From Corynebacterium falsenii (lineage in GTDB: Bacteria > Actinomycetota > Actinomycetes > Mycobacteriales > Mycobacteriaceae), in the NCBI RefSeq assembly GCF_020099275.1, contig NZ_CP083646.1:496001-560000 (forward strand): DNA of 64,000 nt, written 5' to 3'. The translations under genes were made by a program, and so were the position numbers. Shown here piece after piece: positions 41,304-56,903 of the stretch. Below the pieces are notes generated by a model that worked only from the letters and a program-made list of their open reading frames with translations, had not been told where the DNA came from and made no database searches. The stretch's first letter is position 1, and each line of letters begins with the position of its first letter.

Positions 41304-42149
41304 ATGCCCACTATCGGAATCGTGAACGTCAACACGTCGGAGTCGATGACCACCACCATCGTTGACGCCGCCCGCGCCGTCGCAGCCCCTGACACAACCA
41401 TTGTGGGACTCACCCCGCAGCGCGGTCCGGTATCGGTCGAGACTCATGTGGAGGCCTATCTCTCCGCTGTCGGCGTGATTGAGGCGGTGCATCGTTACAC
41501 TCTTGAATCCGCGTCCCAAGGCGCGCAAACGGACTCCCCAGCCACCACATCGCTCCCTGCCGATGCACAGTTACCTGACACCGCATCGCTCCCCGTCGAC
41601 GCATGGATCATCGCCGGCTACGGCGACCAAGGAAAAGAGGCTCTGCAGGAGCTTGTTGACGTGCCCGTCATCGATATCACCGAGGCCGCAGCAGTGGCCG
41701 CGATGTCTGTGGGCGATGCCTACGCGGTGGTCACCACGCTCGACCGCACAGTGCCCATGATTCGCGCGCGGCTAAGCCAGGCGGGGCTCATCGATCGGTG
41801 CGTGTCGATTACCGGAACCGGCCTCGGCGTGCTCGAGCTGGAAGAAGATCCACAACGCACCCGCCAAGCAATCATCGATGCCGCTACCGCAGCGTTGCGC
41901 CGCACCGAGCATCCCGCGGAGTCCATCTGCCTAGGCTGCGGCGGAATGGCGGGCCAGGGCCCCGAGCTGTCGAAGGAACTCGGTGTCCCCGTCGTCGATG
42001 GCGTGGCTGCCGCGGTGGGACAGGCCGAATCGCTTGTGCGACAGGGGCTCACGACCTCCCGCATCGGAACCTTCGCGCCGCGCGGTCCCAAGCGCCTTCA
42101 TGGCTTTGAGCAACTCGAACTCCCTACCGAATCCCTCACGGAAAGTTGA
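41304..42149 (+). CDS. Asp/Glu/hydantoin racemase-superfamily protein (ureide island)
   Basis: A 281-residue protein of the superfamily that includes allantoin and hydantoin racemases and arylmalonate decarboxylase. The second catalytic Cys is present (ICLGCGGM, Cys212). At the site of the first, where racemases usually read ACFGD, it has Gly105 (IIAGYGDQG). One Cys opposite a Gly is the arrangement of arylmalonate decarboxylase rather than of a two-base racemase, so racemase activity is uncertain. There is also an insert at about residues 68-97. It is the first gene of the allantoin block (permease, aldolase-like protein, allantoinase, allantoicase), and a GGAAAGG ribosome site precedes it. 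Confidence 0.75.
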   Translation: MPTIGIVNVNTSESMTTTIVDAARAVAAPDTTIVGLTPQRGPVSVETHVEAYLSAVGVIEAVHRYTLESASQGAQTDSPATTSLPADAQLPDTASLPVDAWIIAGYGDQGKEALQELVDVPVIDITEAAAVAAMSVGDAYAVVTTLDRTVPMIRARLSQAGLIDRCVSITGTGLGVLELEEDPQRTRQAIIDAATAALRRTEHPAESICLGCGGMAGQGPELSKELGVPVVDGVAAAVGQAESLVRQGLTTSRIGTFAPRGPKRLHGFEQLELPTESLTES

Positions 42150-42159
42150 CCCCATCCCC

Positions 42160-43653
42160 ATGAATACCGGAGATATCAGCGGCAATGACGTTGTCATTCC
42201 TGCCAATGCCGACCCCGACCTCATCAACCCAGACCTTGCACCGCTGAAGAACCAACACTGGGGTGCTTACAACGTCTTCGCCTTCTGGATGTCAGACGTC
42301 CACTCCGTCGGCGGCTACATCACAGCCGGAGCACTGTTCGCCCTAGGGTTGACGGCATGGCAGGTTCTGCTTGTCCTATTGCTGGGCATCACCATCGTCT
42401 ATTTCCTTTGCAACCTCGTGTCGCTGCCATCCCAGCGCACCGCCACACCCTTCCCAGTCGTGTGCCGCGCCGCGTTTGGTATTCAGGGCGCGAAGATCCC
42501 TGCCATCATCCGCGGACTCATCGCGGTGGCGTGGTACGGAATCCAGACGTATCTCGCCAGCCATGCACTCGTCGTGCTGCTGGTGAAGCTCGTCCCATCC
42601 TGGGCACCCTACGCAGACAAGGATCTCCACGGTTTCCTCGGACTGTCTGTGCTGGGATACATCGGTTTCTTCATCCTGTGGGTGCTCCAAGCGCTGGTGT
42701 TCTGGCGCGGCATGGAGGCCATTCGAAAGTTCATCGACTTCTGTGGTCCGGCTGTCTACGTGGTGATGTTCCTGCTGGCGATCTACCTCATTTCCCAGGC
42801 TGGGTGGTCGAACATCAGCTTCTCATTGGCAGATTTCCAGCTCTCCGGCTGGGCGGCGTTCTCGGCTTTCTGTGCCGGAACCGCCACGGTGGTCAGCTAC
42901 TTCTCCGGTCCAATGCTCAATTTCGGTGACATTTCTCGCTACAGCTCTTCCCAGGCTGCGGTGAAGCGCGGTAACTTCCTGGGACTGCCGGTGAACTTCC
43001 TGGTCTTCTCGATCCTCGTGGTGGTCACGGCCTCGGCAACAGTCCCGGTTTACGGCCGCCTCATCACCGACCCTGTGGAAACAATCGCGCAGCTCAGCAA
43101 CACGTTTGCCATTGCTTTCGGTGCACTCACGTTGATGATCGCCACGATTGGCATCAACATCGTTGCGAACTTCATCGCCCCGGCCTTCGACTTCTCTAAC
43201 GTGGCTCCGTCGAAAATTTCGTGGCGCACCGGTGGCATGATCGCGGCGGTCGGGTCGATCTTCCTCACCCCATGGAATCTCTACAACTCTCCGGAGGTCA
43301 TTCACTACACGCTGGATACGCTGGCTTCCTTCATCGGTCCGCTGTTTGGCGTGCTGATCGCCTTCTTCTACGTCATTCACAAGCACCGCGTGGACGTGGA
43401 CGCCCTGTTCAGCTCCTCACCCGAGGGCCCGTATTTTTATCGCAACGGTTTCAATATCAACGCTGTGATCGCCACGGTTGTGGGCGCTGTACTGAGCCTG
43501 TTGACCATCCTTGTCCCCGCCCTCCAACCTGCCGCCACTTACACTTGGTTCATCGGCGCCGGGGTCGCAGCCGCAGTGCTCGTCGGCCTGGAGCGCCTGC
43601 GCCCCTCGTTGCCTCGCACGTCGCCCCAGCAGAAAGCCCTCGTCAACGCATGA
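42160..43653 (+). CDS. NCS1-family permease, probably for allantoin or hydantoins
   Basis: A 497-residue membrane transporter of the nucleobase:cation symporter-1 family with about 12 helices. Typical sequence includes the opening LAPLKNQHWGAYNVFAFWMS near residues 27-46, GLTAWQVLLVLLLGITIVYF near 66-85 and later PVVCRAAFGIQGAKIPAIIRG. Its position between the racemase-family gene and allantoinase genes points to allantoin or another ureide. The ATG at 42160 opens the conserved part; the open frame extends upstream only as a shadow. The next gene starts in its stop codon (ATGA). Confidence 0.88.
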   Translation: MNTGDISGNDVVIPANADPDLINPDLAPLKNQHWGAYNVFAFWMSDVHSVGGYITAGALFALGLTAWQVLLVLLLGITIVYFLCNLVSLPSQRTATPFPVVCRAAFGIQGAKIPAIIRGLIAVAWYGIQTYLASHALVVLLVKLVPSWAPYADKDLHGFLGLSVLGYIGFFILWVLQALVFWRGMEAIRKFIDFCGPAVYVVMFLLAIYLISQAGWSNISFSLADFQLSGWAAFSAFCAGTATVVSYFSGPMLNFGDISRYSSSQAAVKRGNFLGLPVNFLVFSILVVVTASATVPVYGRLITDPVETIAQLSNTFAIAFGALTLMIATIGINIVANFIAPAFDFSNVAPSKISWRTGGMIAAVGSIFLTPWNLYNSPEVIHYTLDTLASFIGPLFGVLIAFFYVIHKHRVDVDALFSSSPEGPYFYRNGFNINAVIATVVGAVLSLLTILVPALQPAATYTWFIGAGVAAAVLVGLERLRPSLPRTSPQQKALVNA

Positions 43654-45047
43654 TCTCGCCCCTGTCACGCCGCGCCGCCGACCTCGCCGCCGCGCGCCTC
43701 ACCGCCACGGATCCCAAGGTCACGGGCGAGTGGTCGAGCCCCCTGTCGTGGCGTCAACCCATCCACACCGTTTACATCCCGGCGTCGACCTTCTTTCTCG
43801 ACGCCACACCCCACCCGCCCCACACCCTCCCGCAGCGGTGGGGCCAGCAGATAGTGGATGTGTTGCAGGAGCGCGCCGGGGAGTCAGCGTCGGCCGCCGA
43901 TGCGGCCCGTGACCTGGCAGAATCCCTGGGCGTGGAGGATCCACAGCGCGTGGCAAGCCTAGCCGTGGACAAGCTGCTGCGCGAGCCGATCGAGGACGTG
44001 CGCATCGACTTCGAGGACGGTTTCACCCAGCGCGGGGTGCCTTCCGAGCGCCGAGATCAGCAGGAGTCCGATTTCGCTGCCCGGGCCGCCGACCTGCTCG
44101 CGGACTGGCTCCTCGACGGCGGGACGGGAGTGCCGCCGTTTTGCGGTATCCGATTCAAGTCCTTCGACCCGCTGGTGCGCGAGCGGGGCATCGATACGCT
44201 CATCACCGTCCTCACCGGGCTACACGAGCGAGGCGTGCTGCAGGCGTTGTACCGCCCAGATTCGCCGCGCTTCGACCCCCGCGCCCTGCGGCTGACGTTC
44301 CCGAAGGTGCAGGATACGTCGCAGGTAGAGGCATTGGTGGAGATCCTGCAGATGCTGGAAGCCGAGTGGGGCTTGGATGCTCGAGGCGTGCAGATCCGTT
44401 TCGAAATTCAGGTGGAAACACCCCAGGCCGTCATCGGAGATGACGGCCTGGTCGAGGCCGCGCGGATGATCAAGGCCGCGCAAGGCCGGTGCCTGTCGCT
44501 GCACTACGGCACGTACGATTACTCGGCATTCCTGGGCGTGGACCCGGCCCAGCAGTCCATGGAGCACCCCGTCGCTGATACGGCCAAGGGCCTGCTGCAG
44601 GTCGTGGCCCGCGGTCACGGGGTCGAGCTCTCCGACGGGTCCACGAACCGCATCCCCGTGGGGAGCTCGGCGGCTATGGAGCAGGCGTGGGCGCTGCACT
44701 ATCGCCTCGTCACCCGGCACCTGACCAGGGGAATTAGGCAGGGTTGGGATCTGCACCCACACCAGCTGATCACCCGGCACCTCGCTACGATTGCGTACTT
44801 CCGGCGCGACTGGGAACTGTCCGCCCGGCGTCTCAAGGCCTACGTGGCCGGGGATACCTCGGAGTGGATGGACGAGCCAGCTACCGCGAAGATGCTGGCG
44901 AGCTTCCTCCGACGCGCGCACGCCTGCGGCGCGATCGCCGACGCCGAAGTGCGCACCGCCGGAGTAACAGCAGGTCAGCTCGTGCAACTCGAGGCAACCG
45001 GGCGCCTCACCGACCATCCCACCGACCATCTCACCAACCAGGAGTAA
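43650..45047 (+). CDS. DUF6986 / HpcH-CitE-type aldolase-like protein
   Basis: A 465-residue protein resembling the DUF6986 group within the HpcH/CitE-type TIM-barrel superfamily, which includes citrate lyase beta and malate-synthase-like enzymes. The metal-ligand motifs are visible: IDFEDG at residues 119-124 (as LEDAV in CitE) and IQVETPQAV near 253-261, plus HYGTYDYSAFLG near 289-300 (the FGTDDL-like motif). No activity is established. Sitting among allantoin genes, it might handle glyoxylate or ureidoglycolate, the end products of allantoicase, for which no other enzyme is present here. It overlaps the permease gene by 4 bp and precedes allantoinase by 9 bp. Confidence 0.78.
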   Translation: MISPLSRRAADLAAARLTATDPKVTGEWSSPLSWRQPIHTVYIPASTFFLDATPHPPHTLPQRWGQQIVDVLQERAGESASAADAARDLAESLGVEDPQRVASLAVDKLLREPIEDVRIDFEDGFTQRGVPSERRDQQESDFAARAADLLADWLLDGGTGVPPFCGIRFKSFDPLVRERGIDTLITVLTGLHERGVLQALYRPDSPRFDPRALRLTFPKVQDTSQVEALVEILQMLEAEWGLDARGVQIRFEIQVETPQAVIGDDGLVEAARMIKAAQGRCLSLHYGTYDYSAFLGVDPAQQSMEHPVADTAKGLLQVVARGHGVELSDGSTNRIPVGSSAAMEQAWALHYRLVTRHLTRGIRQGWDLHPHQLITRHLATIAYFRRDWELSARRLKAYVAGDTSEWMDEPATAKMLASFLRRAHACGAIADAEVRTAGVTAGQLVQLEATGRLTDHPTDHLTNQE

Positions 45048-45056
45048 TTTCCCACT

Positions 45057-46640
45057 ATGACAGTGCAGATCTTCCGTGCTCGGCGCGCGGTCATCGGATA
45101 CCCAGAGGTCCATGAATCACCGGTGACGGTGGTGGTGCGTGGTGGCGTCGTCGAGAAAATCTATGAGGGAGGCTCCGCCGAGATCACCAGCGCCGACCTC
45201 CCCGGCACCGCCGACGCCGAGATCATCACCATTCCCGACGATCAGATTCTGCTGCCCGGCCTGGTGGACACGCACGTGCACGTCAACGAGCCGGGGCGCA
45301 CGGACTGGGAAGGGTTCGTCAGCGTCACCCGGGCCGCAGCGGCCGGAGGCGTGACCACGCTGCTGGACATGCCGCTGAACTCGATCCCCTCGACTGTGAC
45401 GATGGATGCGCTGCGCACCAAGCGCGACATCGCGCAGGACAAAGCCAAGATCAGCGTGGGTTTCTGGGGTGGCGTGGTGCCGGAGAATCTCGGCACTGGA
45501 GAGCTGCGCGAGCTGTGGGATACGGGGCGCGTGTTCGGCTTCAAGTGCTTCCTGCTGCACTCAGGCGTGGACGAATTCCGGCCTCTCACACCGATCCAGC
45601 TACAGCGCGCGATGGAGGAAATTGCGGACTTCGATGGGCTGCTCATCGTCCACGCCGAGGACTCCGAGACCATCGAACGCGCCGAACAGGAGCAGCAGGG
45701 CCGCGGCGGGATTACGCAGGTCTATGCGACATTCGAGGCGTCCCGACCACCGGAGGCCGAGCGAACCGCCATTGAAACGGTAATCGACGCCGCCGAGCGC
45801 ACCGGCTGCCGGGCGCACATCCTGCACCTCTCGGACGCGGGCTCGCTGGAGCTACTGCGGGATGCGCAGCGCCGAGGGGTGCGCATCACCGCGGAGACAT
45901 GCCCGCATTACCTGTCGCTGTTCAGTGAGGAAATCCAGAACGGCGCGACCCAGTACAAGTGCTGCCCGCCGATCCGCACCGCAGGTAACCGCGAGCGGCT
46001 GTGGGCCGGGCTAGTGGATGGGGTGATCTCCACGGTGGTCTCGGATCACTCGCCGTGCACCGCGGAGCTGAAGAAGTTCGCCACCGCCGCTCCCGCGCCG
46101 TTCTCCGCCATGGACGCCGAAGGCACCAACCTCGGCGGCGCCGGCGCAGACGGCCGCGGCTCCGAAGGCAGCTTCGGGCAAGCCTGGGGAGGCGTGGCAT
46201 CCGTGCAGCTTGGGCTGCCCGTCGTGTGGTCACAGGCCCGCCTGCGTGGACTGGGGCTCACGGACGTGGTGCGCTGGATGTGCACCAACCCAGCACGGTG
46301 GTGCGGCCTCACCGACCGTGGCGCGATCGTCCCCGGCGCGCGTGCTGACTTCGTGGCCGTCAGCGCAGATGACGCCTTCGTTGTGCTCCCAGACAAACTC
46401 CACCACAAGAACAAGGTCTCCGCGTACGCCCAGCGCGCCCTGGCCGGGGTAGTGCACACCACCTGGGTCGCCGGGGAGGTCGTGTACACAGCTGATGCTG
46501 CACGTCCCACGGACTCGGCAGCCCAGGCGGACACCGCTACCTTCCCCGGGGGCACACCGCCTCTCGTCGATAGGCCGGATGCGGTGGGGGAGCATGGTGG
46601 CGTCGACGCTAAAACACACAACGGTGGACAAGGAAACTAG
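45057..46640 (+). CDS. allB: Allantoinase
   Basis: A 527-residue zinc amidohydrolase that opens allantoin to allantoate. Metal and substrate motifs are seen in order: HVHVNEPGRTDWEGF near residues 72-86, the carboxylated-Lys region GFKCFLLHSG near 160-170, HAED near 199, HILHLSDAGS near 257, and DHSPCT near 333. It is about 70 residues longer than common AllB proteins, mostly from a Thr/Pro/Ala-rich C-terminal tail that includes a translated copy of the dispersed GTGGCGTCGA motif (VGEHGGVDAK). Allantoicase follows after 4 bp. Confidence 0.93.
   Translation: MTVQIFRARRAVIGYPEVHESPVTVVVRGGVVEKIYEGGSAEITSADLPGTADAEIITIPDDQILLPGLVDTHVHVNEPGRTDWEGFVSVTRAAAAGGVTTLLDMPLNSIPSTVTMDALRTKRDIAQDKAKISVGFWGGVVPENLGTGELRELWDTGRVFGFKCFLLHSGVDEFRPLTPIQLQRAMEEIADFDGLLIVHAEDSETIERAEQEQQGRGGITQVYATFEASRPPEAERTAIETVIDAAERTGCRAHILHLSDAGSLELLRDAQRRGVRITAETCPHYLSLFSEEIQNGATQYKCCPPIRTAGNRERLWAGLVDGVISTVVSDHSPCTAELKKFATAAPAPFSAMDAEGTNLGGAGADGRGSEGSFGQAWGGVASVQLGLPVVWSQARLRGLGLTDVVRWMCTNPARWCGLTDRGAIVPGARADFVAVSADDAFVVLPDKLHHKNKVSAYAQRALAGVVHTTWVAGEVVYTADAARPTDSAAQADTATFPGGTPPLVDRPDAVGEHGGVDAKTHNGGQGN
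46587..46606 (+). repeat. Dispersed GTGGCGTCGA motif, extended copy
   Basis: A longer copy in the allantoinase tail, GGGGAGCATG directly before GTGGCGTCGA; it adds the peptide GEHGGVDAK. It is identical to the copy at 49917 except for one base in the shared 20-base block. Confidence 0.65.
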
Positions 46641-46644
46641 GAAC

Positions 46645-47796
46645 ATGAGCACACCCCAGGACTTCGAAAACTACCCCGACCTGGCCAATCGCCAGCTCGC
46701 GGGATCAGTGATCTGGGCCAGCGACGAGTCCTTCGCCGAGCGCGAGAACCTCATCATGCCCCACGACCCCGCCTTCGACCCCGCCCTGTTCGGCAACAAA
46801 GGCAAGGTCTACGACGGCTGGGAAACACGCCGGCGCCGCCACGAGGAAATTGGCCACAACGATGCCGCCATCGTCCGCCTCGGCGTGCCCGGCCACATCC
46901 GCGGCGTGGTCGTAGACACCTCCTGGTTCACCGGCAACTACCCGCCGCAGTTCGCGGTCAAGGGCATCTGCATTGACGACTACCTCCCCGCAGACGAGAT
47001 CGCCGCGCTGCCCGATAGTGAGTGGTTCGACCTGGTTGGCGTCACCGACGCGCAGGGCGATACGCGGCACGCCGTGGCCATCGACCCGGACAGTGCGGCC
47101 GGGCAGACGCGGGTCACGCACGTGAAGCTCATCATGATTCCGGACGGTGGCATCGCTCGCCTGCGCGTCCACGGCATCCCCGCGCCGAATCCGCAGTTCC
47201 TGGGGTCCACGGTGGACCTCGCGGCGATCGAGCACGGCGGGTGGGTCACCGAATGTTCCAACATGTTCTACTCCTCGCCGAACCAGATCTTGAGCCTCGG
47301 CCGGGCGATCAATATGGGTGGGGGTTGGGAAAATGCTCGACGCCGCAATGGTGGCAACGACCATGTCGTCATCCGGCTGGCTGGGGAGAGCGTCCCGGAG
47401 TTCGTGGAGGTGGATACGAGCTACTTCGTGTTCAACGCGCCGGGGGAGATCCGGCTGACCGGGTGGAACGCTGGCGGTGATGTGGATGCTGATGGCAGTG
47501 CTGGCGTGGATGCTGATGGCAGCGATGGCGGTGCGAGCAGTGCTGGTGTGGATGCTGATGGCAGTGATGGCAGTGCTGGTAGCAATGCTGGGCCCGAGAT
47601 CATCGAATTGGTATCCAAGCGCCGGGTTCTGCCGGACACGCGCCACCGATTCGCGGTATCCGAGGAAGCCCGCGACCTTCCGATTACCCACGTGCGTCTG
47701 GACGTGTACCCGGACGGAGGCTTGGCACGGCTGCGCGTGTTTGGCTCGTTGACGGGTGCGGGGTTGCGCGAGCTCGAGGCGCGCTGGGAACGCTGA
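46645..47796 (+). CDS. alc: Allantoicase
   Basis: A 383-residue two-repeat beta-jelly protein that hydrolyses allantoate to ureidoglycolate and urea. The first repeat carries GKVYDGWETRRRR and VVDTSWFTGNYPP (about residues 50-105), and the second carries GWENARRRNGGNDHVVIRLAG and VEVDTSYFVFNAPGEIRL (about 230-275). A low-complexity insert of some 43 residues (about 276-318, DADGSAGVDADGSDGG and so on) separates the second repeat from its C-terminal strands (PDTRHRF). It is encoded by tandem DNA repeats at 47482-47564, so this protein is about 45 residues longer than usual. It follows allantoinase by 4 bp, after which comes a 400-bp gap. Confidence 0.93.
   Translation: MSTPQDFENYPDLANRQLAGSVIWASDESFAERENLIMPHDPAFDPALFGNKGKVYDGWETRRRRHEEIGHNDAAIVRLGVPGHIRGVVVDTSWFTGNYPPQFAVKGICIDDYLPADEIAALPDSEWFDLVGVTDAQGDTRHAVAIDPDSAAGQTRVTHVKLIMIPDGGIARLRVHGIPAPNPQFLGSTVDLAAIEHGGWVTECSNMFYSSPNQILSLGRAINMGGGWENARRRNGGNDHVVIRLAGESVPEFVEVDTSYFVFNAPGEIRLTGWNAGGDVDADGSAGVDADGSDGGASSAGVDADGSDGSAGSNAGPEIIELVSKRRVLPDTRHRFAVSEEARDLPITHVRLDVYPDGGLARLRVFGSLTGAGLRELEARWER
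47482..47564 (+). repeat. Coding tandem repeat in allantoicase
   Basis: The 17-base unit GTGGATGCTGATGGCAG occurs at 47482, 47506 and 47548, in frame, encoding VDADGS. Likely expansion sequence in a loop of the protein. Confidence 0.8.
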
Positions 47797-48203
47797 ATTG
47801 CTGCGTGGTGGAAGCATTCGATGCGTTGAGGGCTTCCCGGAACGTGCAATGCTGTTCCACGTCGAGGCTGTGTGGGGGTCCTGAGATGCCAATGGAGATT
47901 TGGTCAGATTTTGTCAAGGCAAAACTACGTAAAAACCTGCTTTTTGCTTAGTTCTGCCTTGACCAAAATTGCACTTTTCCCTTGACGGGGTCATTGACGC
48001 CACGGAAACCCCTTCTCCTTCCCCTTGACCTTTTACTTTCCAGTCCCGCCAATGCTCTGGCTCCGTTAACACCGCTGAAAACAGATCCCCGGCCATCGCT
48101 TTCTATATGTAATCGCTGTTTAACTGCTGCGAAACATTCATCGATCAGACTTATCCCTATCGGCGCAACACCGGCCCCGATGATGAGATGAGGAGACCTG
48201 ATC
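47797..48203. other. Intergenic region between the two purine blocks
   Basis: A 407-bp gap, more AT-rich than its surroundings, with a 20-bp-arm imperfect hairpin at 47908-47969 and no gene seen. The promoter of the NCS2 permease block is probably in the right half, and the hairpin may end the allantoicase transcript. Confidence 0.5.
47908..47969. repeat. Imperfect 20-bp inverted repeat between the purine blocks
   Basis: The arms TTTTGTCAAGGCAAAACTA and, inverted, TTTTGGTCAAGGCAGAACTA pair with one indel and one mismatch around a 21-base loop that itself contains AAAAA and TTTTT. It may be a terminator, a protein-binding site or a mobile-element remnant. Confidence 0.55.
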
Positions 48204-49991
48204 ATGACAACCGGAGACAGCCTGGCATTAGCCACAGCGAGACTTGAAGCAGCCGCAGCGAAAGCCCGAGCCCGCGCAGAGGCTGAGCGCACGATCTGGG
48301 CCAGCGCTACAAATCGAGTGAAGTCCGGGGTAACTACAGCGAGGTCGAGGGTCTCCATGCGTCGCAGCTCCACCGCCACGGCCTCCACCGCCACGGCCTC
48401 CACCGCCACGGCCTCCACCGCCACGGCCTCCACCGCCACGGCCTCCACCGCTGCGACCACCACCCCGGCCACCACTTCGACTACCGCCATGGCAAACACC
48501 ACAACAGCGGCCACCACCGCTGCAACCCCCAACACCCCGCACCCCGTGGACCAGCGCCCACCCTTCGGCAAGCTTTTCATCCTCGGCCTCCAGCACGTCC
48601 TCGCCATGTACGCAGGCGCCGTGGCCGTGCCGCTGATCGTCGGCGGAGCCATGGTCGCCGCGGGCAAGCTGCAGCAGTCCGATATCCACCACCTCATCGT
48701 CGCGGACCTGTTCGTGGCAGGCATCGCCTCCATCATCCAGTCCGTCGGCTTCTGGAAGTTCGGCTCACGCCTTCCGCTGATCCAGGGCGTGTCCTTCGTA
48801 TCCGTGGCCCCCATGATCGCCATCGGAAGCCAATTCGGAGTGCAGGCCATCTACGGCTCCGTCATCACCACTGGCCTCATCATGATCGCCGTGGCCCCCG
48901 TGTTCTCGAAGATCGTCAAGTACTTCCCGGCGATTGTCACCGGCACCATCATGACGATCATTGGTCTTTCCCTCATGAAGGTCCCCGCCGGCTGGATCGT
49001 CTCGGACAAGATGGCCCCGAACCTCAGCGGCGGCCTGAACTTCCTCCTCGCCCTGGTCACGCTCCTCACGGTCGTTGTCATTCACCGCTTTTCTTCCGCC
49101 AGCTGGCGCCCCATGGCGATCCTCGGCGGCGTGATCGTCGGCACCATCGTCGCGCAGCTCTTCGGCGCCACGAACTGGACTGAGATGCACAAGGCCGAGT
49201 GGATCGGCGTGCCCACTCCCTTCCAGTTTGGCCTTCCCACCTTCCAGATCGGCGCGATCCTCACCATGGCCATCGTGGGCCTCGTCATTATGACGGAAAC
49301 CACGGGCGACATCATCGCCGTCGGCAAGATCACCGGCCGCCCCGCAAGCAAGCAGGTGCTCGGCAACGGCCTGCGCGCCGACGGCCTGTCCACCCTCCTC
49401 GGCGGCGTGTTCAACACGTTCCCCTACACGGCATTCGCGCAGAACGTGGGCTTGGTGAGCCTCTCCCGCGTGTTCTCCCGCTTCGTGGTGACCGCCTCGG
49501 GCGTGATCCTCATTGCCCTCGGCTTGCTGCCGAAGCTCGGTGGCGCCGTGGCCGCGATCCCCACCCCGGTTCTCGGCGGCGCGGGCATCGCGCTGTTCGG
49601 CATGATTACCGCCTCGGGCATCCGCACCCTTGCCAGCATCGAATGGAATGAGACCCGCGCTCTCATCGTCGGCGTGTCTGTGTCCATCGCCCTGTTGCCC
49701 TCTATTTCTTCTGGTTTTTACGACGCCCTACCGAAGACCTTCGCCATGATCCTTGATTCGGGAATCACGATGGGCGCAATCAGCATTATCCTTCTGAACT
49801 TGCTGATTAACCGCCAAGGCAATGGTCATGTGGACGAGACCATGGGTGCGGAGACCACCCCGCTGGGCGCAGCCGAGGTCAGCGCAGAGCTGGCCAGCGA
49901 GGCGGACGCTGAGGTGGGGGAGCCTGGTGGCGTCGAGAAAAAGACGGCGACCGAGACCAAGCGCGCGCTCGAAGGGGCGGGCACGCCATGA
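48204..49991 (+). CDS. NCS2-family urate/xanthine permease with repetitive N-terminus
   Basis: A 595-residue membrane transporter of the nucleobase-ascorbate (NCS2) family with about 12-14 helices; QHVLAMYAG near residue 132 and ETTGDIIAVGKITGR near 373 are signature motifs, the latter typical of urate/xanthine carriers. A cytoplasmic N-terminal extension of about 115 residues is unusual and contains STATA repeated five times, encoded by a 15-bp tandem repeat (48368-48442). A GAGGAGAC ribosome site supports the ATG at 48204. It is the first gene of the guanine/urate block. The C-terminal tail contains a copy of the dispersed GTGGCGTCGA motif (GEPGGVEKK). Confidence 0.88.
   Translation: MTTGDSLALATARLEAAAAKARARAEAERTIWASATNRVKSGVTTARSRVSMRRSSTATASTATASTATASTATASTATASTAATTTPATTSTTAMANTTTAATTAATPNTPHPVDQRPPFGKLFILGLQHVLAMYAGAVAVPLIVGGAMVAAGKLQQSDIHHLIVADLFVAGIASIIQSVGFWKFGSRLPLIQGVSFVSVAPMIAIGSQFGVQAIYGSVITTGLIMIAVAPVFSKIVKYFPAIVTGTIMTIIGLSLMKVPAGWIVSDKMAPNLSGGLNFLLALVTLLTVVVIHRFSSASWRPMAILGGVIVGTIVAQLFGATNWTEMHKAEWIGVPTPFQFGLPTFQIGAILTMAIVGLVIMTETTGDIIAVGKITGRPASKQVLGNGLRADGLSTLLGGVFNTFPYTAFAQNVGLVSLSRVFSRFVVTASGVILIALGLLPKLGGAVAAIPTPVLGGAGIALFGMITASGIRTLASIEWNETRALIVGVSVSIALLPSISSGFYDALPKTFAMILDSGITMGAISIILLNLLINRQGNGHVDETMGAETTPLGAAEVSAELASEADAEVGEPGGVEKKTATETKRALEGAGTP
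48368..48451 (+). repeat. 15-bp coding tandem repeat in the NCS2 permease
   Basis: The unit CTCCACCGCCACGGC is repeated five times exactly (48368-48442) plus a partial sixth copy, in frame, encoding STATA repeats. Such perfect repeats are prone to slippage, and copy number may differ between strains. Confidence 0.9.
49917..49936 (+). repeat. Dispersed GTGGCGTCGA motif, extended copy
   Basis: A longer copy in the NCS2 permease tail, GGGGAGCCTG before GTGGCGTCGA, then an A-rich run. It encodes GEPGGVEKK, close to the peptide in allantoinase (GEHGGVDAK) and guanine deaminase (GEAGGVEIK). Confidence 0.65.
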
Positions 49992-50106
49992 ACTCAGTGA
50001 TCACGGAGCGGTACGCGGGCTGGCCGGTGGGCCAGATCGCGCACGGGGCGTAGGGCCGCGCAGACCCCCACAACCCCGCTGAGCAACCGACCGATAAGGA
50101 CACCCT

Positions 50107-51279
50107 GTGACTACTAGCCTGCGCAGAATGGCAGGTCGTGGCGGACAGACCGCCCCGACTGCCGCAACCACCCCGACCGACAACACGCATCAAGCGCGCG
50201 AGACCAGCCAGAACCCAGGCGACCTGCCGCTGCCGCGTACCCTCACGTTCATCCCAAGTGACTGGCAGATCCTCGCCCGCTACTGGTACCCGGTGGCGCG
50301 GATTGAGGATGTCACCGAGGGGCCGATGGGCGTGACGCTGCTGGACATGCCGCTGGTGGTGTACCGCCATGAAGGTGAGATAATTGTCGCTGACGATCTC
50401 TGCCCGCACCGCGGCATGAAACTGTCCATGGGTTCGGACCAGGGCGATGGCCAGGGCATCAAGTGCCCGTACCATGGCCTGCGCTTCGGCAAGGGCGGCC
50501 GGTGCATTTCGGTTCCGGCGCACCCGGATAACAAGATCCCGGAGAAGATGCATCTGCGCTCCTACGGTGTGGTGCTGCGCTATGGATTGGTGTGGACCTG
50601 CCTGGCCGTCCGCGCCGGGGAGGCCGGTGCCGGGGAGGCGGCGGACCCCGCCGCACACATCCCGCCGGTGCCGCATTGGGACGAGCCGGAGTTCCAGCAG
50701 ATCAACTGCCCGTATATCGACGTGGAGGCCTTCGCGGGCCGCCAAGTCGAGGGCTTCTTGGACGTGGCGCATTTCCCCTTCGTCCACGCCGATTCCTTCG
50801 CCGATGCCGCCATTGAGGAAGTGCCGAACTACACCCCCGTGCTCACCGACGATGGCTTCGAGGCCGAGTACTGGTCCACCATGCCGAACGTCCCGCACGG
50901 CGTGGAGCTGGACGTTCCGGAAGGCTTCCAGTGGCTGCGGCATTTCCGGTTGCATGTGCCTTTTGCGGCGTCGTTGGTGGTGCATTTCCCCGGGGGAGCG
51001 CGGTTGTCGATGCTCAACGCCGCGAGCCCCGTCTCGGCGAAAAAGACTCGGCTGTTCGACGCCCGCTGCCGCAACTTCGACACCGACCAGCCCGTGCAGG
51101 ACGTCTACGACTTCAACCGCCAAGTCTTCGAGGAAGACCGCGCGATGGTGGAGGCCCAGAAGCCGGAGAACCTCCCGCTCGATCCGAAGCTGGAGGTGCA
51201 CATCCCCGCGGACAAGTCGTCCATCGCGTACCGGCGGGCGTTGCGCGCCCTCGGCCTGTCTGAGTTCTTCACGGCGTAA
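50107..51279 (+). CDS. Rieske non-heme iron oxygenase subunit in the purine block
   Basis: A 390-residue Rieske oxygenase of the VanA/PaO-like type. The 2Fe-2S ligands are CPHRG (Cys99, His101) and CPYHG (Cys120, His123); the mononuclear iron site has GFLDVAHFPFVH (Asp219, His222, His227). These enzymes hydroxylate, demethylate or cleave ring substrates with O2 and electrons from a reductase. Its partner reductase is the next gene. Between a urate/xanthine permease and guanine deaminase, its substrate is plausibly a purine: xanthine, urate or a methylxanthine. This is inference. Translation starts at a GTG (50107) after AAGGAC; there is also an ATG seven codons downstream. Confidence 0.85.
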   Translation: MTTSLRRMAGRGGQTAPTAATTPTDNTHQARETSQNPGDLPLPRTLTFIPSDWQILARYWYPVARIEDVTEGPMGVTLLDMPLVVYRHEGEIIVADDLCPHRGMKLSMGSDQGDGQGIKCPYHGLRFGKGGRCISVPAHPDNKIPEKMHLRSYGVVLRYGLVWTCLAVRAGEAGAGEAADPAAHIPPVPHWDEPEFQQINCPYIDVEAFAGRQVEGFLDVAHFPFVHADSFADAAIEEVPNYTPVLTDDGFEAEYWSTMPNVPHGVELDVPEGFQWLRHFRLHVPFAASLVVHFPGGARLSMLNAASPVSAKKTRLFDARCRNFDTDQPVQDVYDFNRQVFEEDRAMVEAQKPENLPLDPKLEVHIPADKSSIAYRRALRALGLSEFFTA

Positions 51280-51289
51280 GGGGGCGAGC

Positions 51290-52360
51290 ATGACAACCAG
51301 CATGTCTGCCAGCACGCCCTCCGGCACTATTGAGGCCTACGTGCACTCCGTGACCTGGGGTGGACCGGACGTCCTCATCGTCGAACTCCGCCCCGTTACC
51401 GGCGCATTCCCGCAGGCCAGCGCGGGTTCGCACATCGATATCCATCTTCCCGTCGATGGCCGCGACGCCATTCGCCAGTACTCCCTCATCAACTCCGACG
51501 CCACACCCCAGCGCTATCTCATAGCCGTCTTTCGGGAGCCGCAGTCCCGTGGTGGCTCGCGGTTGATCCACGACGTGCTGCGCGTCGGCCACATCGTGGA
51601 CATCTCCGCGCCGCGGAACACCTTTCCGTTGGCTCGTGGGGATCACCACACCGCCGGAGGACAGCACGTGCTGCTTGGCGGCGGCATCGGGGTGACACCC
51701 CTGGCCGCCATGGCTCAGCACCTGGTCGGGGCGGGCGAGGAGTTCGAGCTGCACACGTATGCCTCCACGCGCCGGGACGCCCCGCTGGCGGACTACATCG
51801 GAAGTGTCCTTGTACCCGACCCGCCAACTGCGCCAACCGTGCCAACAGCGCCAACCGTGCCAACCGCACCAACCGCGCAGGCGGCGTGGCACCAGCACTA
51901 CTCGGACGAGGAACCCAGCTTCCGCACTGCCACCGCCCTGCCACGGAAATATCAGCCCGGTGACCACGTGTATATCTGCGGGCCGGCCGGCTTCATCGAC
52001 CATGCCGTGGCAGTAGCGCGAGACGCAGGCTGGCCGGAAGACACCATCCACGTGGAACGATTCCGGCTCTCCGAGCCGGTGGACACCACGGGCGAGGCGT
52101 TCGAGGTGGTTGCCCACTCCACGGGCGAGCGCATGCCCGTCGGCGAACAGCAGACCATTGCAGAGGTATTGGCCGATCACGGCTACCACGTGGAACTGTC
52201 CTGCGAGCAGGGCATCTGCGGGTCGTGCATCACGGGAGTGGTCTCCGGCGTGCCGGATCACCGCGATGAGGTGCAAAGCGAGGCTGAGCATCAGGCGAAC
52301 ACGCAGATCAACGTGTGTTGTTCGCGCAGTCGCTCGGCGGAGTTGGTGTTGGATCTGTAA
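51290..52360 (+). CDS. Rieske oxygenase reductase (VanB-like, flavin and 2Fe-2S)
   Basis: A 356-residue phthalate-reductase-type protein. The N-terminal flavin domain has RQYSLINSD near residues 63-71, then the NAD domain opens with GGGIGVTPLAAMA near 126 and CGPAGFIDHA, and a C-terminal plant-type 2Fe-2S ferredoxin domain has CEQGICGSC (Cys305, 310, 313) plus a later Cys near 343. It passes electrons from NAD(P)H to the Rieske oxygenase encoded immediately upstream. A repeat of PTAPTV-type residues, coded by a 9-bp tandem repeat (51824-51877), lies in the linker of the NAD domain. Guanine deaminase starts within its stop codon (TAATG). Confidence 0.9.
   Translation: MTTSMSASTPSGTIEAYVHSVTWGGPDVLIVELRPVTGAFPQASAGSHIDIHLPVDGRDAIRQYSLINSDATPQRYLIAVFREPQSRGGSRLIHDVLRVGHIVDISAPRNTFPLARGDHHTAGGQHVLLGGGIGVTPLAAMAQHLVGAGEEFELHTYASTRRDAPLADYIGSVLVPDPPTAPTVPTAPTVPTAPTAQAAWHQHYSDEEPSFRTATALPRKYQPGDHVYICGPAGFIDHAVAVARDAGWPEDTIHVERFRLSEPVDTTGEAFEVVAHSTGERMPVGEQQTIAEVLADHGYHVELSCEQGICGSCITGVVSGVPDHRDEVQSEAEHQANTQINVCCSRSRSAELVLDL
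51824..51877 (+). repeat. 9-bp coding tandem repeat in the reductase
   Basis: Six copies of a degenerate 9-base unit (consensus CCAACCGNG), in frame, encoding alternating PTA/PTV. It sits in a surface-loop position. Confidence 0.8.
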
Positions 52361-53835
52361 TGCTGGATTCGGTGAACACTCAGCAGCCCCAGACCGCACA
52401 CCGCAGCGGCAACCCCATCGGCAGCCCCAACCCCAGCGGCGTGATGATCCTGCGCGGCCACGTCCTCACCCCTCTCGCCCAGGGCTCCGCAGCACTCCGA
52501 CAGGGGCAGGTGAGATGGGGAGAGGCTGGTGGCGTCGAGATCAAAGATATTCCCGACGGAGCCATCGCCATCGACACCGCCACGGGCACGATCGAAGCCG
52601 TGGGAGACTACGCCAGCGTGCGTGCGGAGTGCGCGGAACAAGCAGCGGACCAGGTAACCGTGCGCGACCACCGTGGCTGCTTCCTGCTGCCTGGGTTCGT
52701 GGACTGCCATGTGCATTTCCCGCAGCTCGATATGGTGGCCTCCCCGGGCGAAGAGCTGCTCGGCTGGCTGAACACCTACACGTTCCCCGCCGAGCAGGCT
52801 TACGCCGACCGCGCCTTCGCCGAGGCGAAAGCAGACGTGTTCGCGGATGCACTCATCGCCCACGGCGTGACCACCGCCAGCGTGTACGCCACCAGCCACC
52901 CCCACTCCGCGGCCGCCATGTTCCGCGCTGCCCAGGCCAGGGACATGCGCGTGATCTGCGGCAAAGTGTGCATGGACCGCAACGCCCCCGAGCCGCTGCT
53001 GGACACCCCGGACACCGCCTACGCCGACAGCCGTGCGCTCATCGAAGCGTGGCACGGCGTGGGCCGGTTGGAGTACGCGATCACGCCGCGATTCGCCCCC
53101 ACGAGCTCGCCTGCGCAACTGGACGCGCTGGGAGAGCTGGCGCGCGAGTTTCCCACTGTGGTGATCCAGACGCATCTGGCGGAGAACCGCGGCGAGGTCG
53201 AGTGGGTTCGCGAGCTGTACCCGGAGGCTGCCGACTACACGGATGTGTACGCCAGCCGCGGCCTGGTCCGCGAGCGCAGCATCCTGGGGCACTCGATCTA
53301 CCTGTCGCCTGCTGAGCTGCACCGCATCGCGGAGACAGGGGCGGGGTTGGCTCACTGTCCGTCGTCTAACTTGTTTTTGGGGTCTGGTTTATTCGACGCC
53401 ACAACGGCCTGGAACGCGGGCGTCCGCGTGGGGCTGGGATCGGATGTCGGTGCTGGGCCGAGTCTGTGGGCGCCGTCCGTGGCTGCGGACGCATACAAGG
53501 TGTCGCGGCTGCTCGGCACCCCGGTGAACGCGGGGCAGATGCTGTACCTGGCGACGCTCGCCGGCGCGGAGGCGCTGGGTGTGGATGCGCACGTGGGGAG
53601 CCTGGAGGTGGGCAAGGATGCGGACGTGCTGGTGGTGGATCCGGCGGCGTGTCCGGCGCTGGCGGCGCGGTTGGGCGGTGGTGTGTCTGGGGACGCGTGC
53701 AGTGGTGCTTCCGGTGGTGGCCCTGGTGGGAGCACCGAGGAAGCGCTGTTCGCGACGTTCCTCCTTGCCGACGAGCGCGTCCTTCGCGAAGTCTGGGTGC
53801 ACGGGCGACCGGCACGTGCCGTGGAGCGCGGGTAG
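52360..53835 (+). CDS. guaD: Guanine deaminase
   Basis: A 491-residue amidohydrolase that deaminates guanine to xanthine. The metal motif HVHFPQ is at His117/His119 (PGFVDCHVHFPQLDM), followed by TPRFAPTSS (near 242), QTHLAENRGE (near 268) with its zinc His, ILGHSIYL (near 308) and GLGSDVGAG (near 360) with the catalytic Asp. The protein is some 40-50 residues longer than common GuaD enzymes because of a low-complexity N-terminus that includes the motif-encoded peptide GEAGGVEIK and a Gly-rich loop near the end. The start overlaps the reductase stop, so the two are coupled. It makes xanthine, yet no xanthine dehydrogenase is present here. Confidence 0.92.
   Translation: MLDSVNTQQPQTAHRSGNPIGSPNPSGVMILRGHVLTPLAQGSAALRQGQVRWGEAGGVEIKDIPDGAIAIDTATGTIEAVGDYASVRAECAEQAADQVTVRDHRGCFLLPGFVDCHVHFPQLDMVASPGEELLGWLNTYTFPAEQAYADRAFAEAKADVFADALIAHGVTTASVYATSHPHSAAAMFRAAQARDMRVICGKVCMDRNAPEPLLDTPDTAYADSRALIEAWHGVGRLEYAITPRFAPTSSPAQLDALGELAREFPTVVIQTHLAENRGEVEWVRELYPEAADYTDVYASRGLVRERSILGHSIYLSPAELHRIAETGAGLAHCPSSNLFLGSGLFDATTAWNAGVRVGLGSDVGAGPSLWAPSVAADAYKVSRLLGTPVNAGQMLYLATLAGAEALGVDAHVGSLEVGKDADVLVVDPAACPALAARLGGGVSGDACSGASGGGPGGSTEEALFATFLLADERVLREVWVHGRPARAVERG
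52517..52538 (+). repeat. Dispersed GTGGCGTCGA motif, extended copy
   Basis: A longer copy near the 5' end of guaD, GGGGAGAGGCTG before GTGGCGTCGA, encoding GEAGGVEIK in a stretch that looks dispensable for the fold. Confidence 0.6.
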
Positions 53836-53883
53836 CCCCATGACACTATGCACCATGACACTATGCGGAAGCGGCAGGCAATA

Positions 53884-54948
53884 ATGAATGAACACATCAC
53901 TGAAGAGAGGATCGAGGTAATGGCATCGGGAACGGCATCGGGGAAGGGCGAGACTGGCGGCGTCGAAGCGTTTAATCACGCCCCTGAGCGGCAAGCTGTT
54001 TCGCTGCTTGAACCGCTTTTCTGCAGCGCGCAGCTGGCCGAGCAGGTGGTGGCGGCGCGTCCTTTCGCAACGGCGGATGATGCCGTCGACGAAATGAAGG
54101 AATTGCTCCGTGACCTGCCCGAAGATGCCATTTTGGAAAGCGTCAATGCGCATCCTCCGATTGGTGGTTCGGTGGAGAAGGGGTCGCTGTCGGAATCGGA
54201 GCAGTCGGCGGCCCTGGGTGATCAGGGCGCAGGTGGCGAAGGCGGTGGTGAAGGCGATGGTGCTGATCCCCTCACCACGATTCGCGCACTCAACGAAGAG
54301 TACCGAGGGCGCTTTGGCTACACGTTCCTCATTCGTGCGGCGGGGTTGACGGCAGGGCAGATCTTGGCCAACCTCGAGCAGCGCCTCACCAACACACCCG
54401 AAGCTGAGTGGAGTGAGGTGCTGGGCAACCTTGCGGCAATCAATGAGCTGCGGATGCGGCAGATGCTGGAGTCTCTGGGTGTGACCGGCCCGACGCTATC
54501 AACTCATGTGCTGGACACATCCACTGGGCTTCCGGCGTCTGGGGTGCATTTCGAGCTGCAACTGATTCAATGGGTCAGTGGTGGTAGCGGTACCAGCAGC
54601 GATAGCAGTGCCAGTGCCAGCAGTGCCATCGCCAACAGTGCCAACAGTGCTGAGGAAAGTGCAGGTGTCGGCAGCGATGCGACTGTCAATCCTGGTCAGT
54701 CGGTAGTGGAGAGCGGAGAGACCAACGCTGACGGCCGTTTCTCCTTCGCCGATCGCTTGGGGGCCGGCGTGTACAACCTGCGGTTCGACACGGACTCTTA
54801 CTTTGCTGCACGCGGTATTCGTGGACTGTATCCCTGGGTCGATGTGACGTTCCGGGTGGACGATGTGGACCTCGGTGCGGGGGCGTCGCATCTCCACATT
54901 CCATTGCTGCTGTCCCCATACGGCTACTCAACGTACCGCGGGTCCTGA
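53884..54948 (+). CDS. Fused OHCU decarboxylase / HIU hydrolase (UraD-UraH)
   Basis: A 354-residue two-domain enzyme. The N-terminal part (about residues 35-195) is the UraD decarboxylase that turns OHCU into (S)-allantoin, with the catalytic His in NAHPPIGG (about 88-95) and the conserved FGYTFLIRAAG later. The C-terminal part (about 205-354) is transthyretin-like HIU hydrolase: STHVLDTSTGLPASGV, TNADGR and the closing HIPLLLSPYGYSTYRGS. Together they process the product of urate oxidation, although no urate oxidase gene is recognised in the window. The two domains carry low-complexity inserts (Gly/Glu-rich near 118-128, Ser/Ala/Asn-rich near 230-262). The start could also be ATG 53920. Confidence 0.9.
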   Translation: MNEHITEERIEVMASGTASGKGETGGVEAFNHAPERQAVSLLEPLFCSAQLAEQVVAARPFATADDAVDEMKELLRDLPEDAILESVNAHPPIGGSVEKGSLSESEQSAALGDQGAGGEGGGEGDGADPLTTIRALNEEYRGRFGYTFLIRAAGLTAGQILANLEQRLTNTPEAEWSEVLGNLAAINELRMRQMLESLGVTGPTLSTHVLDTSTGLPASGVHFELQLIQWVSGGSGTSSDSSASASSAIANSANSAEESAGVGSDATVNPGQSVVESGETNADGRFSFADRLGAGVYNLRFDTDSYFAARGIRGLYPWVDVTFRVDDVDLGAGASHLHIPLLLSPYGYSTYRGS

Positions 54949-54969
54949 GCGTGAGCGCCGGGCTTCAGA

Positions 54970-55056
54970 TGTGACAATGTTGTGTTTTGTCGAAATTCAC
55001 TTTGCAAAACCCCAGGTCGAAATTTTTGTAACCCCTCAAAACACAACATTGTCACA
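54970..55056. repeat. 87-bp inverted-repeat element 1
   Basis: Perfect 20-bp arms, TGTGACAATGTTGTGTTTTG and its inverse complement, flank a 47-base centre. It lies 21 bp after uraD-uraH. Element 2, of identical length, lies 119 bp downstream; the arms differ in sequence but keep base pairing. Confidence 0.8.
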
Positions 55057-55175
55057 AGTGAAGCACCGCTGGCGGTGAGAAGGCGGAGGGTTCAGGCGAT
55101 TGGAGGTCTTCAAATCAGCGTGCAGATCAGCGCGGCACGGTCTGGACCGACGATCCGGAAAACCCAGCAGGGACA

Positions 55176-55262
55176 TGTACGAATGCCGTGGTTTGTGGAT
55201 TTCGCGGGCACAAAAGACCAGATGGTCAAATGTGCTACCTCACAAAACACGGCATTCGTACA
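55176..55262. repeat. 87-bp inverted-repeat element 2
   Basis: The arms are 22 bp (TGTACGAATGCCGTGGTTTG then TG) with one mismatch, around a 43-base centre that holds a smaller palindrome, GACCAGATGGTC. It ends 15 bp before the stop of the convergent monooxygenase gene. The total length equals that of element 1. Confidence 0.8.
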
Positions 55263-55277
55263 CGCAGAGCTCGCTGC

Positions 55278-56903
55278 CTAGTAGCGCGGCTGCTGGGGGT
55301 ACCAGGGGTCGCCTTCTTTGTGGCGACCCACATTGGTGACTTCGACATGCTCAAAAGCCTTGAAGTCCTCGAAGAAATCGTCCCAGTTCTCGGCCATAAT
55401 GTCCGTGGCGATGCGCGCGGACATTCGAGTAATACCTGCATAAATGCCGGAAAGCTGGTTGCCCGCAAGGCCATGGGAAGCCCGCGCCCCGGTAGAGAAG
55501 TGGTACAGCCGGGGAATGTATTCGGCCGGATCGGCGCCAGCTTCAGCCTCAACCCCAACCTCTGCCTCAGCCTCAGCCCCAGCTTTCGGCTGGAACTGGA
55601 ACCCATCGCCCAAGTACGGGCACTTGCCCATCGGGTGCCCCGCAGCAGGGGAGTACTGATCACTCCACAGCTGAATGTCGCCCACGAACTCCTGCAGCTC
55701 CGGCCGCAGGGCCAGATCCACGGTGTAGCCCGTTGCGGAGATGATGAAGTCGACCACGGTGACGTCGCCGTGATTGTCGGTGACCAGCAGCTCCTCCGTG
55801 CCACCTGTGCCACCAGCGGCGTCACCATCCGAGATCACCTCAATCGACTGAATCGTGGTGCCCTCATGGAGCGAGAAGTTGTCGAAGGCGAACGCGCGCC
55901 AGATGCTCGCTTGCGTCGGCGGCTGGGGAAGGCCGCCGTTGAACAGGCCAAACTCCCACTTTTTGTCGTCCGGCAGGTCGAAGAAGCGCTCCTGCATGCC
56001 GGGGAACTCCATCCACCGCAGCGAGTTCTTCGTGGCGACCTGCGCCGAACGCTGGAACAAGGTCACCGACTCCGCGCCTGCCTCCAAGGCCGTACCCGCG
56101 TTGTCGAAGCCGGAAGCGCCGCCGCCGACCACTAACACTCGCCGCCCTTCGAACTGCGAGAAGTCGATCATGTCCTCGGTGTGCACCCAGAACTTATGCG
56201 GCAGCTCACGGATTAAAGATGGCACGAAGGCTCCGCCGCCGCCGTCGAGCCCCAGGGCGAAAATGACCCGTTGCGCGCGGTACTCCACGCCCTCACTACC
56301 GCCGTCGCCGTCGCCGTCGCCACCGCGCCGCGCCCGAACGGTAAACGCCCCACCCGGCTCGCTCGGTGGCAGCACTTCCGTCACCTCTGTTTCAAAGTCC
56401 ACATCCGCGTCGGTGACCGTGCGGTACCACTCCAAGTATTCGTGCCAGTCCAGCCGCGGCACGAGCGTGGTGTGCTCCCAGGCTTCGTCCCCGTACTTCG
56501 CCCGGAACCACGACTCAGTGTGCAACGAAGGCACATCCAACTCGATGCCTTTCATATTCTTTGGACTCCGCAGCGTGTGCATCCGCGCGTACCGCGACCA
56601 GCATCCGATGGAATCGGCTGGGGCGGCGTCGAGAATCTTTACCTTCCCGATTCGGTGCCGTTGCAGCGCGAACGCGGCCCCGAGCCCCGCCTGTCCACCG
56701 CCGATGATGAGCACGTTGTACGCGCCGTCGGAGGGGTCGGGTACCCAGTCGTGGTTGTGGCCGAGGATTTCCATTTCGCGCCGGGCGCCGGCCTCTAGTT
56801 CCTTTAACCTCGACGCCGCCCTCATCCCATCAATCGCCGGCGGGCGTTGGTCGGCTGGCAAGGTATGCCGGTGGACCGTGGGCTTGGAGAGGCTGGTGGT
56901 CAC
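55278..56903 (-). CDS. Class-B flavin monooxygenase-like protein
   Basis: A 541-residue flavoprotein with two Rossmann motifs: FAD-binding GGGQAGLGAA (residues 68-77) and NADP-binding VVGGGASGFDNAG (near 254-266). A distinctive stretch, RYARMHTLRSPKNMKGIE, lies near residue 104. An N-terminal extension of about 60 residues and acidic/alanine repeats (AEAEAEVGVEAEAGA) are also seen. It resembles class-B monooxygenases and not the p-hydroxybenzoate-hydroxylase class to which HpxO belongs. Convergent with the uraD-uraH gene and at the end of the purine block, it is one candidate for the missing urate-oxidising enzyme. Its gene lies downstream of emb on the same strand with a 156-bp gap. Confidence 0.8.
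   Translation of the reverse strand: MTTSLSKPTVHRHTLPADQRPPAIDGMRAASRLKELEAGARREMEILGHNHDWVPDPSDGAYNVLIIGGGQAGLGAAFALQRHRIGKVKILDAAPADSIGCWSRYARMHTLRSPKNMKGIELDVPSLHTESWFRAKYGDEAWEHTTLVPRLDWHEYLEWYRTVTDADVDFETEVTEVLPPSEPGGAFTVRARRGGDGDGDGGSEGVEYRAQRVIFALGLDGGGGAFVPSLIRELPHKFWVHTEDMIDFSQFEGRRVLVVGGGASGFDNAGTALEAGAESVTLFQRSAQVATKNSLRWMEFPGMQERFFDLPDDKKWEFGLFNGGLPQPPTQASIWRAFAFDNFSLHEGTTIQSIEVISDGDAAGGTGGTEELLVTDNHGDVTVVDFIISATGYTVDLALRPELQEFVGDIQLWSDQYSPAAGHPMGKCPYLGDGFQFQPKAGAEAEAEVGVEAEAGADPAEYIPRLYHFSTGARASHGLAGNQLSGIYAGITRMSARIATDIMAENWDDFFEDFKAFEHVEVTNVGRHKEGDPWYPQQPRY

Follow-up and report, generated by a model that had tools for sequence, protein, structure and literature searches.

A block of purine and allantoin genes in Corynebacterium falsenii, running from about 41304 to 56903 of the 64,000-nucleotide window (the whole stretch of DNA analysed, in which all positions are counted), probably encodes a pathway from guanine and xanthine to ureidoglycolate. 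Judged from sequence comparison, an HpxDE-type Rieske pair is predicted to form urate from xanthine, and a flavin monooxygenase resembling HpyO to convert urate to 5-hydroxyisourate. These are the most likely roles of the two systems, and the split between them is drawn from their occurrence pattern in 242 genomes of the genus. How would such a pathway run? Guanine deaminase GuaD (52444..53835, + strand; TIGR02967, 490 bits with a cut-off of 375) would form xanthine. Electrons from NAD(P)H would travel through the FAD and the 2Fe-2S cluster of the reductase HpxE to the Rieske centre in HpxD, and the mononuclear iron of HpxD would use O2 to oxygenate xanthine at C8. In the monooxygenase, NAD(P)H would reduce the FAD, which would then form a hydroperoxide by which urate is hydroxylated at C5, a step that would give water and not H2O2. 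UraH and UraD, fused in one protein (53848..54948, + strand; PF09349 E 2e-32, PF00576 E 1e-26) which carries a C-terminal YRGS, would convert the hydroxylation product to S-allantoin, and the allantoinase AllB and allantoicase would open it. Such a route would need neither the molybdenum cofactor nor uricase.

Absence of the textbook enzymes

The first-pass annotation had placed the block at 48204..56903. All the genes that it named were found there with family models and motifs, and the block proved to be longer. It had also recognised no urate oxidase and no xanthine dehydrogenase (XDH) in the window, an observation which holds and extends to the whole genome, a single contig of 2,677,377 bases (2.68 Mb) that is 100% complete. 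Genome-wide searches, which used models of known families only, gave 0 matches for uricase (PF01014), for the molybdenum-binding subunit of XDH (PF02738) and for PuuD (PF06181). The model for HpxO (NF033623, cut-off 500) gave four Rossmann fragments of 20-22 bits (best 22.4), none of them in the monooxygenase gene. Among 14 control genomes, those with a match over the cut-off numbered 2 for PF01014, 5 for PF02738, 1 for PF06181 and 0 for the HpxO model. The caveat that the missing enzymes might lie elsewhere on the chromosome can therefore be dropped for uricase, XDH and PuuD, which gave no match, and for HpxO, which gave none above its cut-off; these four candidates are rejected by the genome-wide model searches. 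What remains is the arrangement noticed at the outset, in which two O2-using systems stand where the missing steps belong.

The Rieske pair and HpxDE

The Rieske oxygenase (50107..51279, + strand; PF00355 and PF19112, the Rieske and VanA_C families) is followed by a reductase (51290..52360, + strand; Fer2 and FAD_binding_6) with a C-terminal plant-type 2Fe-2S domain (CEQGICGSC). Over residues 43-388 the oxygenase is 54.9% identical to a Klebsiella pneumoniae protein of the plasmid collection annotated as HpxD, whose record has hpxR, hpxO, an NCS2 permease, uraD and uraH as neighbours. The reductase is 47-48% identical to the reading frames directly behind Klebsiella hpxD, an HpxE-like stretch of two reading frames without annotated feature. 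The window oxygenase contains the Rieske motifs C99-x-H101 and C120-xx-H123, and has H222, H227 and D344 at the places expected for mononuclear iron. The first six of these residues (C99, H101, C120, H123, H222 and H227) are common to the window protein, Klebsiella HpxD and 8 other rows, and D344 is common to 9 of the 10 aligned rows. We take C99, H101, C120 and H123 to be the Rieske ligands, and H222, H227 and D344 the ligands of the mononuclear iron.

What is the Rieske pair of Klebsiella doing? PMC7373994, citing de la Riva 2008, describes hpxDE of K. pneumoniae as involved in oxidising hypoxanthine to xanthine and xanthine to uric acid. The initial expectation that a Rieske-type purine oxidase would be new is thus not sustained, because HpxDE of Klebsiella was reported in 2008. 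In both organisms a Rieske oxygenase and an adjoining reductase are encoded among purine genes that include those for an NCS2 permease, UraD and UraH. They differ in the partners of this molybdenum-cofactor-independent xanthine hydroxylase: in Klebsiella these are the flavoprotein HpxO and the LysR regulator HpxR, whereas the partner of the window pair is a protein resembling HpyO, with no LysR gene noticed beside hpxD. HpxO of Klebsiella, a flavin adenine dinucleotide (FAD) urate hydroxylase, catalyses the same reaction with the same cofactors as predicted for the window monooxygenase, but is not recognised in the window genome at the model cut-off.

The flavin monooxygenase and HpyO

The monooxygenase gene (55278..56903, - strand) is convergent to the fused uraD-uraH gene, and is predicted to encode a urate hydroxylase by its homology to the Xanthomonas gene that lies between uraD and uraH (33-34% identity over 497-522 columns, E 1e-77 to 1e-82). 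The name HpyO for this Xanthomonas gene rests on the genus and on the place between uraD and uraH. Of the 6 loci fetched, 5 have it as a single unbroken frame; in Xanthomonas phaseoli L187 (G630:C1), unlike the 5 other Xanthomonas loci, the gene at this place is in broken frames. PMC4562309 describes the HpyO protein of Xanthomonas as a flavin urate hydroxylase, so the expectation that a flavin urate hydroxylase of this kind would be new is not sustained either. The suspicion that the monooxygenase might be related to HpyO proved well founded, given the full-length homology to the Xanthomonas gene. The two enzymes share about 500 residues of homology, an overlapping Pfam set that includes PF13454, linkage to uraD and uraH, and the residues R-x-M-E and Q-P-P (R296-x-M298-E299 and Q327-P-P in the window protein). 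On the other hand, they are only 33-34% identical, the window enzyme falls in a separate supported clade in two quick trees, and the window gene is convergent to a fused uraD-uraH.

The window protein has two GGGxxG dinucleotide-binding motifs, at residues 68 and 260. Its structure model (pLDDT 91.9) has an N-hydroxylating monooxygenase fold, and the nearest solved folds are the ornithine and lysine N-hydroxylases. It differs from the N-hydroxylating monooxygenases SidA and PvdA in its genetic context and in its predicted substrate, urate. Sequence searches of the PDB gave no molecule named HpyO among the matches listed (all 5 in one case; the best 60 of 140 in the other). A promoter and terminator scan around the gene found 0 and 1 sites, not above shuffles.

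Relatives with a similar setting were found outside the genus, the order being uraD-uraH-gene on a Priestia plasmid and uraD-gene-uraH in Niveispirillum. In the plasmid collection 331 records match the monooxygenase, and the neighbourhoods of six were examined. The Priestia filamentosa plasmid p5 (L199, Bacillota) carries an NCS2-uraD-uraH-monooxygenase set, with recombinase and Tn3-family transposase genes nearby.

Occurrence in the genus

Which of the two oxygenases is acting on urate? Among the 242 genomes surveyed, the UraD domain was found in 88, uricase in 0 and the monooxygenase in 18. Stand-alone uraD, defined as a frame of 370 residues or less (a split fragment in G138 was left out), occurs in 19 genomes, namely all 18 with the monooxygenase and G047 (Fisher p 3e-26 for the association, without correction for relatedness). 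None of the 19 has PuuD. In G047 (L092, G047:C24:1-19900) the cluster is decaying, with the monooxygenase in pieces (43-58% identity), a shortened NCS2 match and, at the threshold used, no uraH match next to uraD. In 16 of the 18 genomes the distance from the monooxygenase to a purine or allantoin gene, measured between match ends, is within 0.5 kb; in G019 and G177 it is 1.4 and 2.3 kb. The uraH half was seen in 15 of the 18; the stand-alone uraD region was not fetched for G119, G120 and G233. From the complete co-occurrence and the absence of uricase and PuuD it follows that the monooxygenase is the enzyme which always accompanies stand-alone uraD. HpxO was searched in the window's own genome, not in the other 17. 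HpxD occurs in 8 genomes, all with the monooxygenase, and XDH in 9, of which 5 are among the 18; the four other XDH-family matches have lower scores and lie outside the monooxygenase set. As only one of the 18 genomes, G216, has both HpxD and XDH, HpxD seems to stand in for XDH at the preceding step.

Could the Rieske pair instead be the urate oxidase, or carry out both oxidations, leaving the monooxygenase to work elsewhere, for instance in amine N-hydroxylation? The Rieske genes sit between the permease and guaD-uraDH, and the folds nearest to the monooxygenase are those of N-hydroxylases, as expected if this were so. Against it, 10 of the 18 monooxygenase genomes have stand-alone uraD without HpxD in a genus with no uricase match, and Klebsiella has the separate urate hydroxylase HpxO besides HpxDE. 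We consider this explanation highly unlikely, and the genus survey leads us to reject the Rieske pair as sole urate oxidase, since uraD is kept where HpxD is missing. A second alternative is that an unrecognised enzyme elsewhere in the genome oxidises urate and that both oxygenases act on other substrates. A member of an unknown family would indeed escape searches with known-family models, but the constant company of monooxygenase and stand-alone uraD, the loss of its integrity in the one damaged cluster, and the relatives from other phyla that adjoin uraD and uraH or lie between them make this a very improbable account. Urate oxidation by the monooxygenase is thus preferred.

Most UraD matches of the genus lie in frames of 466-902 residues. 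UraD occurs only in long frames in 69 of the 242 genomes, and 12 more have long frames besides stand-alone uraD. The one long frame that was translated (L048; G001:C1 near 1972704-1973174) encodes an NCS2 purine permease that continues in frame into a UraD domain at its C-terminus. Long UraD frames occur in species without uricase or the monooxygenase, and the Corynebacterium glutamicum control gave a UraD match too.

Most of the named proteins nearest to the monooxygenase come from Corynebacterium. In an order-level survey of 397 genomes, 4 had the monooxygenase, and two of these belong to the genus. Of the other two, G624 has a protein of 49-53% identity beside an NCS2 gene about 7 kb from the contig end, with uraD-uraH on another contig, and G462 has one of 31-34% identity that lies away from its uraD.

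Points against the proposed pathway, and relatives in other contexts

Several observations weigh against the proposed pathway. Relatives of the monooxygenase with the same 33-34% identity adjoin a dipeptidase gene, a non-purine context, in Gluconobacter and Salipiger, and because of them homology alone is no proof of a urate substrate. The case is further weakened by a Mesorhizobium relative next to molybdenum hydroxylase genes, with no uraD or uraH annotated or matched, and by an unannotated Burkholderia stretch in which the monooxygenase was the only one of the purine queries to match. In quick trees of 88 and 42 rows the window clade and the Xanthomonas and Priestia enzymes do not join; both trees support a clade that contains the Corynebacteriales monooxygenases and leaves out Xanthomonas and Priestia. 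Forcing Corynebacteriales together with Xanthomonas and Priestia costs 12.9 log units (approximately unbiased (AU) test, p 0.031), for a group that was named after the first tree. On the side of the Rieske protein, an HpxD relative of 61% identity lies on a Komagataeibacter plasmid with no purine genes among its annotated neighbours. Finally, HpxD and XDH are both missing from 6 of the 18 genomes with the monooxygenase.

This last count is also what would be expected if the cluster served mainly imported urate and allantoin, with HpxDE acting on another purine such as a methylxanthine or an 8-oxopurine. Rieske enzymes that act on purines are known in the methylxanthine demethylases NdmA and NdmB, and these are relatives of the window protein, albeit far more distant than HpxD (E 7e-35 to 9e-33). 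HpxD of Klebsiella is much closer, at 392 bits in tblastn compared with 124 bits for NdmB in phmmer (scores from different programs), and a guanine deaminase that forms xanthine is encoded next door. We regard a role of HpxDE on another purine as unlikely, and retain xanthine as its predicted substrate.

The trees also govern the naming of the monooxygenase. Since the clades are separate, the window enzyme is named HpyO-like here, and no orthology is claimed; in these sequence trees the HpyO-like enzymes of Corynebacteriales form a deep, separate branch. Does anything in the proteins set those from urate-gene genomes apart? An alignment of 26 such enzymes (19 from the window's genus or family, 5 from Xanthomonas, one each from Priestia and Niveispirillum; the rows are not independent) has 104 columns kept in at least 25 of the 26. 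Compared with five relatives from other contexts (Salipiger, Gluconobacter, G462, Burkholderia and Mesorhizobium), 22 of these 104 columns differ in at least 3 of the 5. R296 differs in all five, and M298, E299 and Q327 in four each, all being kept in at least 25 of the 26. These four residues are candidate substrate contacts.

Novelty and significance

The cluster probably combines known parts in a new way and does not involve new chemistry. The new elements are modest, namely an HpyO-like enzyme paired with HpxDE, the deep actinobacterial branch of HpyO-like enzymes and the genus-wide pattern. HpxDE or HpyO in Corynebacterium is not mentioned in the titles and abstract beginnings listed, full texts being outside this search. 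A literature search on Xanthomonas campestris and urate hydroxylase gave no match, and in the excerpt of an Acinetobacter plasmid paper HpyO appears only in a reference title, the text speaking of HpxO.

Proteins 49-50% identical to the window monooxygenase were found in Malassezia (P0175, P0179 and P0187). Two of the three were placed in a tree, inside the actinobacterial clade and next to Dietzia, a placement that suggests a bacterial-to-fungal transfer. Nothing relevant to a published Malassezia transfer of the monooxygenase was seen among the literature matches listed. A bolder reading, which we offer tentatively and somewhat doubt, is that the monooxygenases of Corynebacteriales form a urate hydroxylase family that was recruited independently, stands apart from Xanthomonas HpyO inside a class-B type flavoprotein superfamily and was passed also to Malassezia skin yeasts; with HpxDE they would make up an oxidative purine pathway entirely free of molybdenum, uricase and peroxide.

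If the proposed pathway is true, it settles how urate and xanthine are degraded without the textbook enzymes in a group of Corynebacterium species, and the present names 'NAD(P)-binding domain-containing protein' and 'aromatic ring-hydroxylating dioxygenase subunit alpha' could be corrected. The pattern is testable: all genomes whose stand-alone uraD cluster is intact have the monooxygenase, and many have HpxD or XDH. Where the H2O2 of uricase is a problem, an enzyme that consumes urate and is predicted to form no peroxide might also be of use.

Other genes of the block

All the remaining genes are on the + strand. An NCS2 xanthine/urate permease (48204..49991; TIGR03173 pbuX, 471 bits, cut-off 414) precedes the Rieske pair. 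A search of the window with Rfam gave 0 matches, thus no xanthine riboswitch at the gathering threshold. The upstream extension of the block comprises a racemase, an NCS1 permease, a DUF6986 protein, AllB and allantoicase. AllB (45057..46640) reaches 485 bits with TIGR03178 (cut-off 358), and allantoicase (46645..47796) 321 bits with TIGR02961 (cut-off 278). The start codons of allantoicase, the reductase and guanine deaminase were chosen among candidate starts. The racemase (41304..42149; PF01177 E 3e-44) belongs to the Asp/Glu/hydantoin family and is probably an allantoin racemase. Next to it is what we take, by recognition and not from the family library, to be an NCS1-type permease, probably for allantoin (42115..43653, start approximate, in the open reading frame 41983-43653); a homologue adjoins the racemase in G071, G119 and G233. 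The DUF6986 frame (43221..45047; PF22484 E 6e-115) probably has its true start downstream of 43221, as the domain begins at about residue 163. A possible role for this protein is a glyoxylate or ureidoglycolate step. Allantoinase is its neighbour in most of the clusters that were fetched (the window at 43221-45047 and loci L073-L090).

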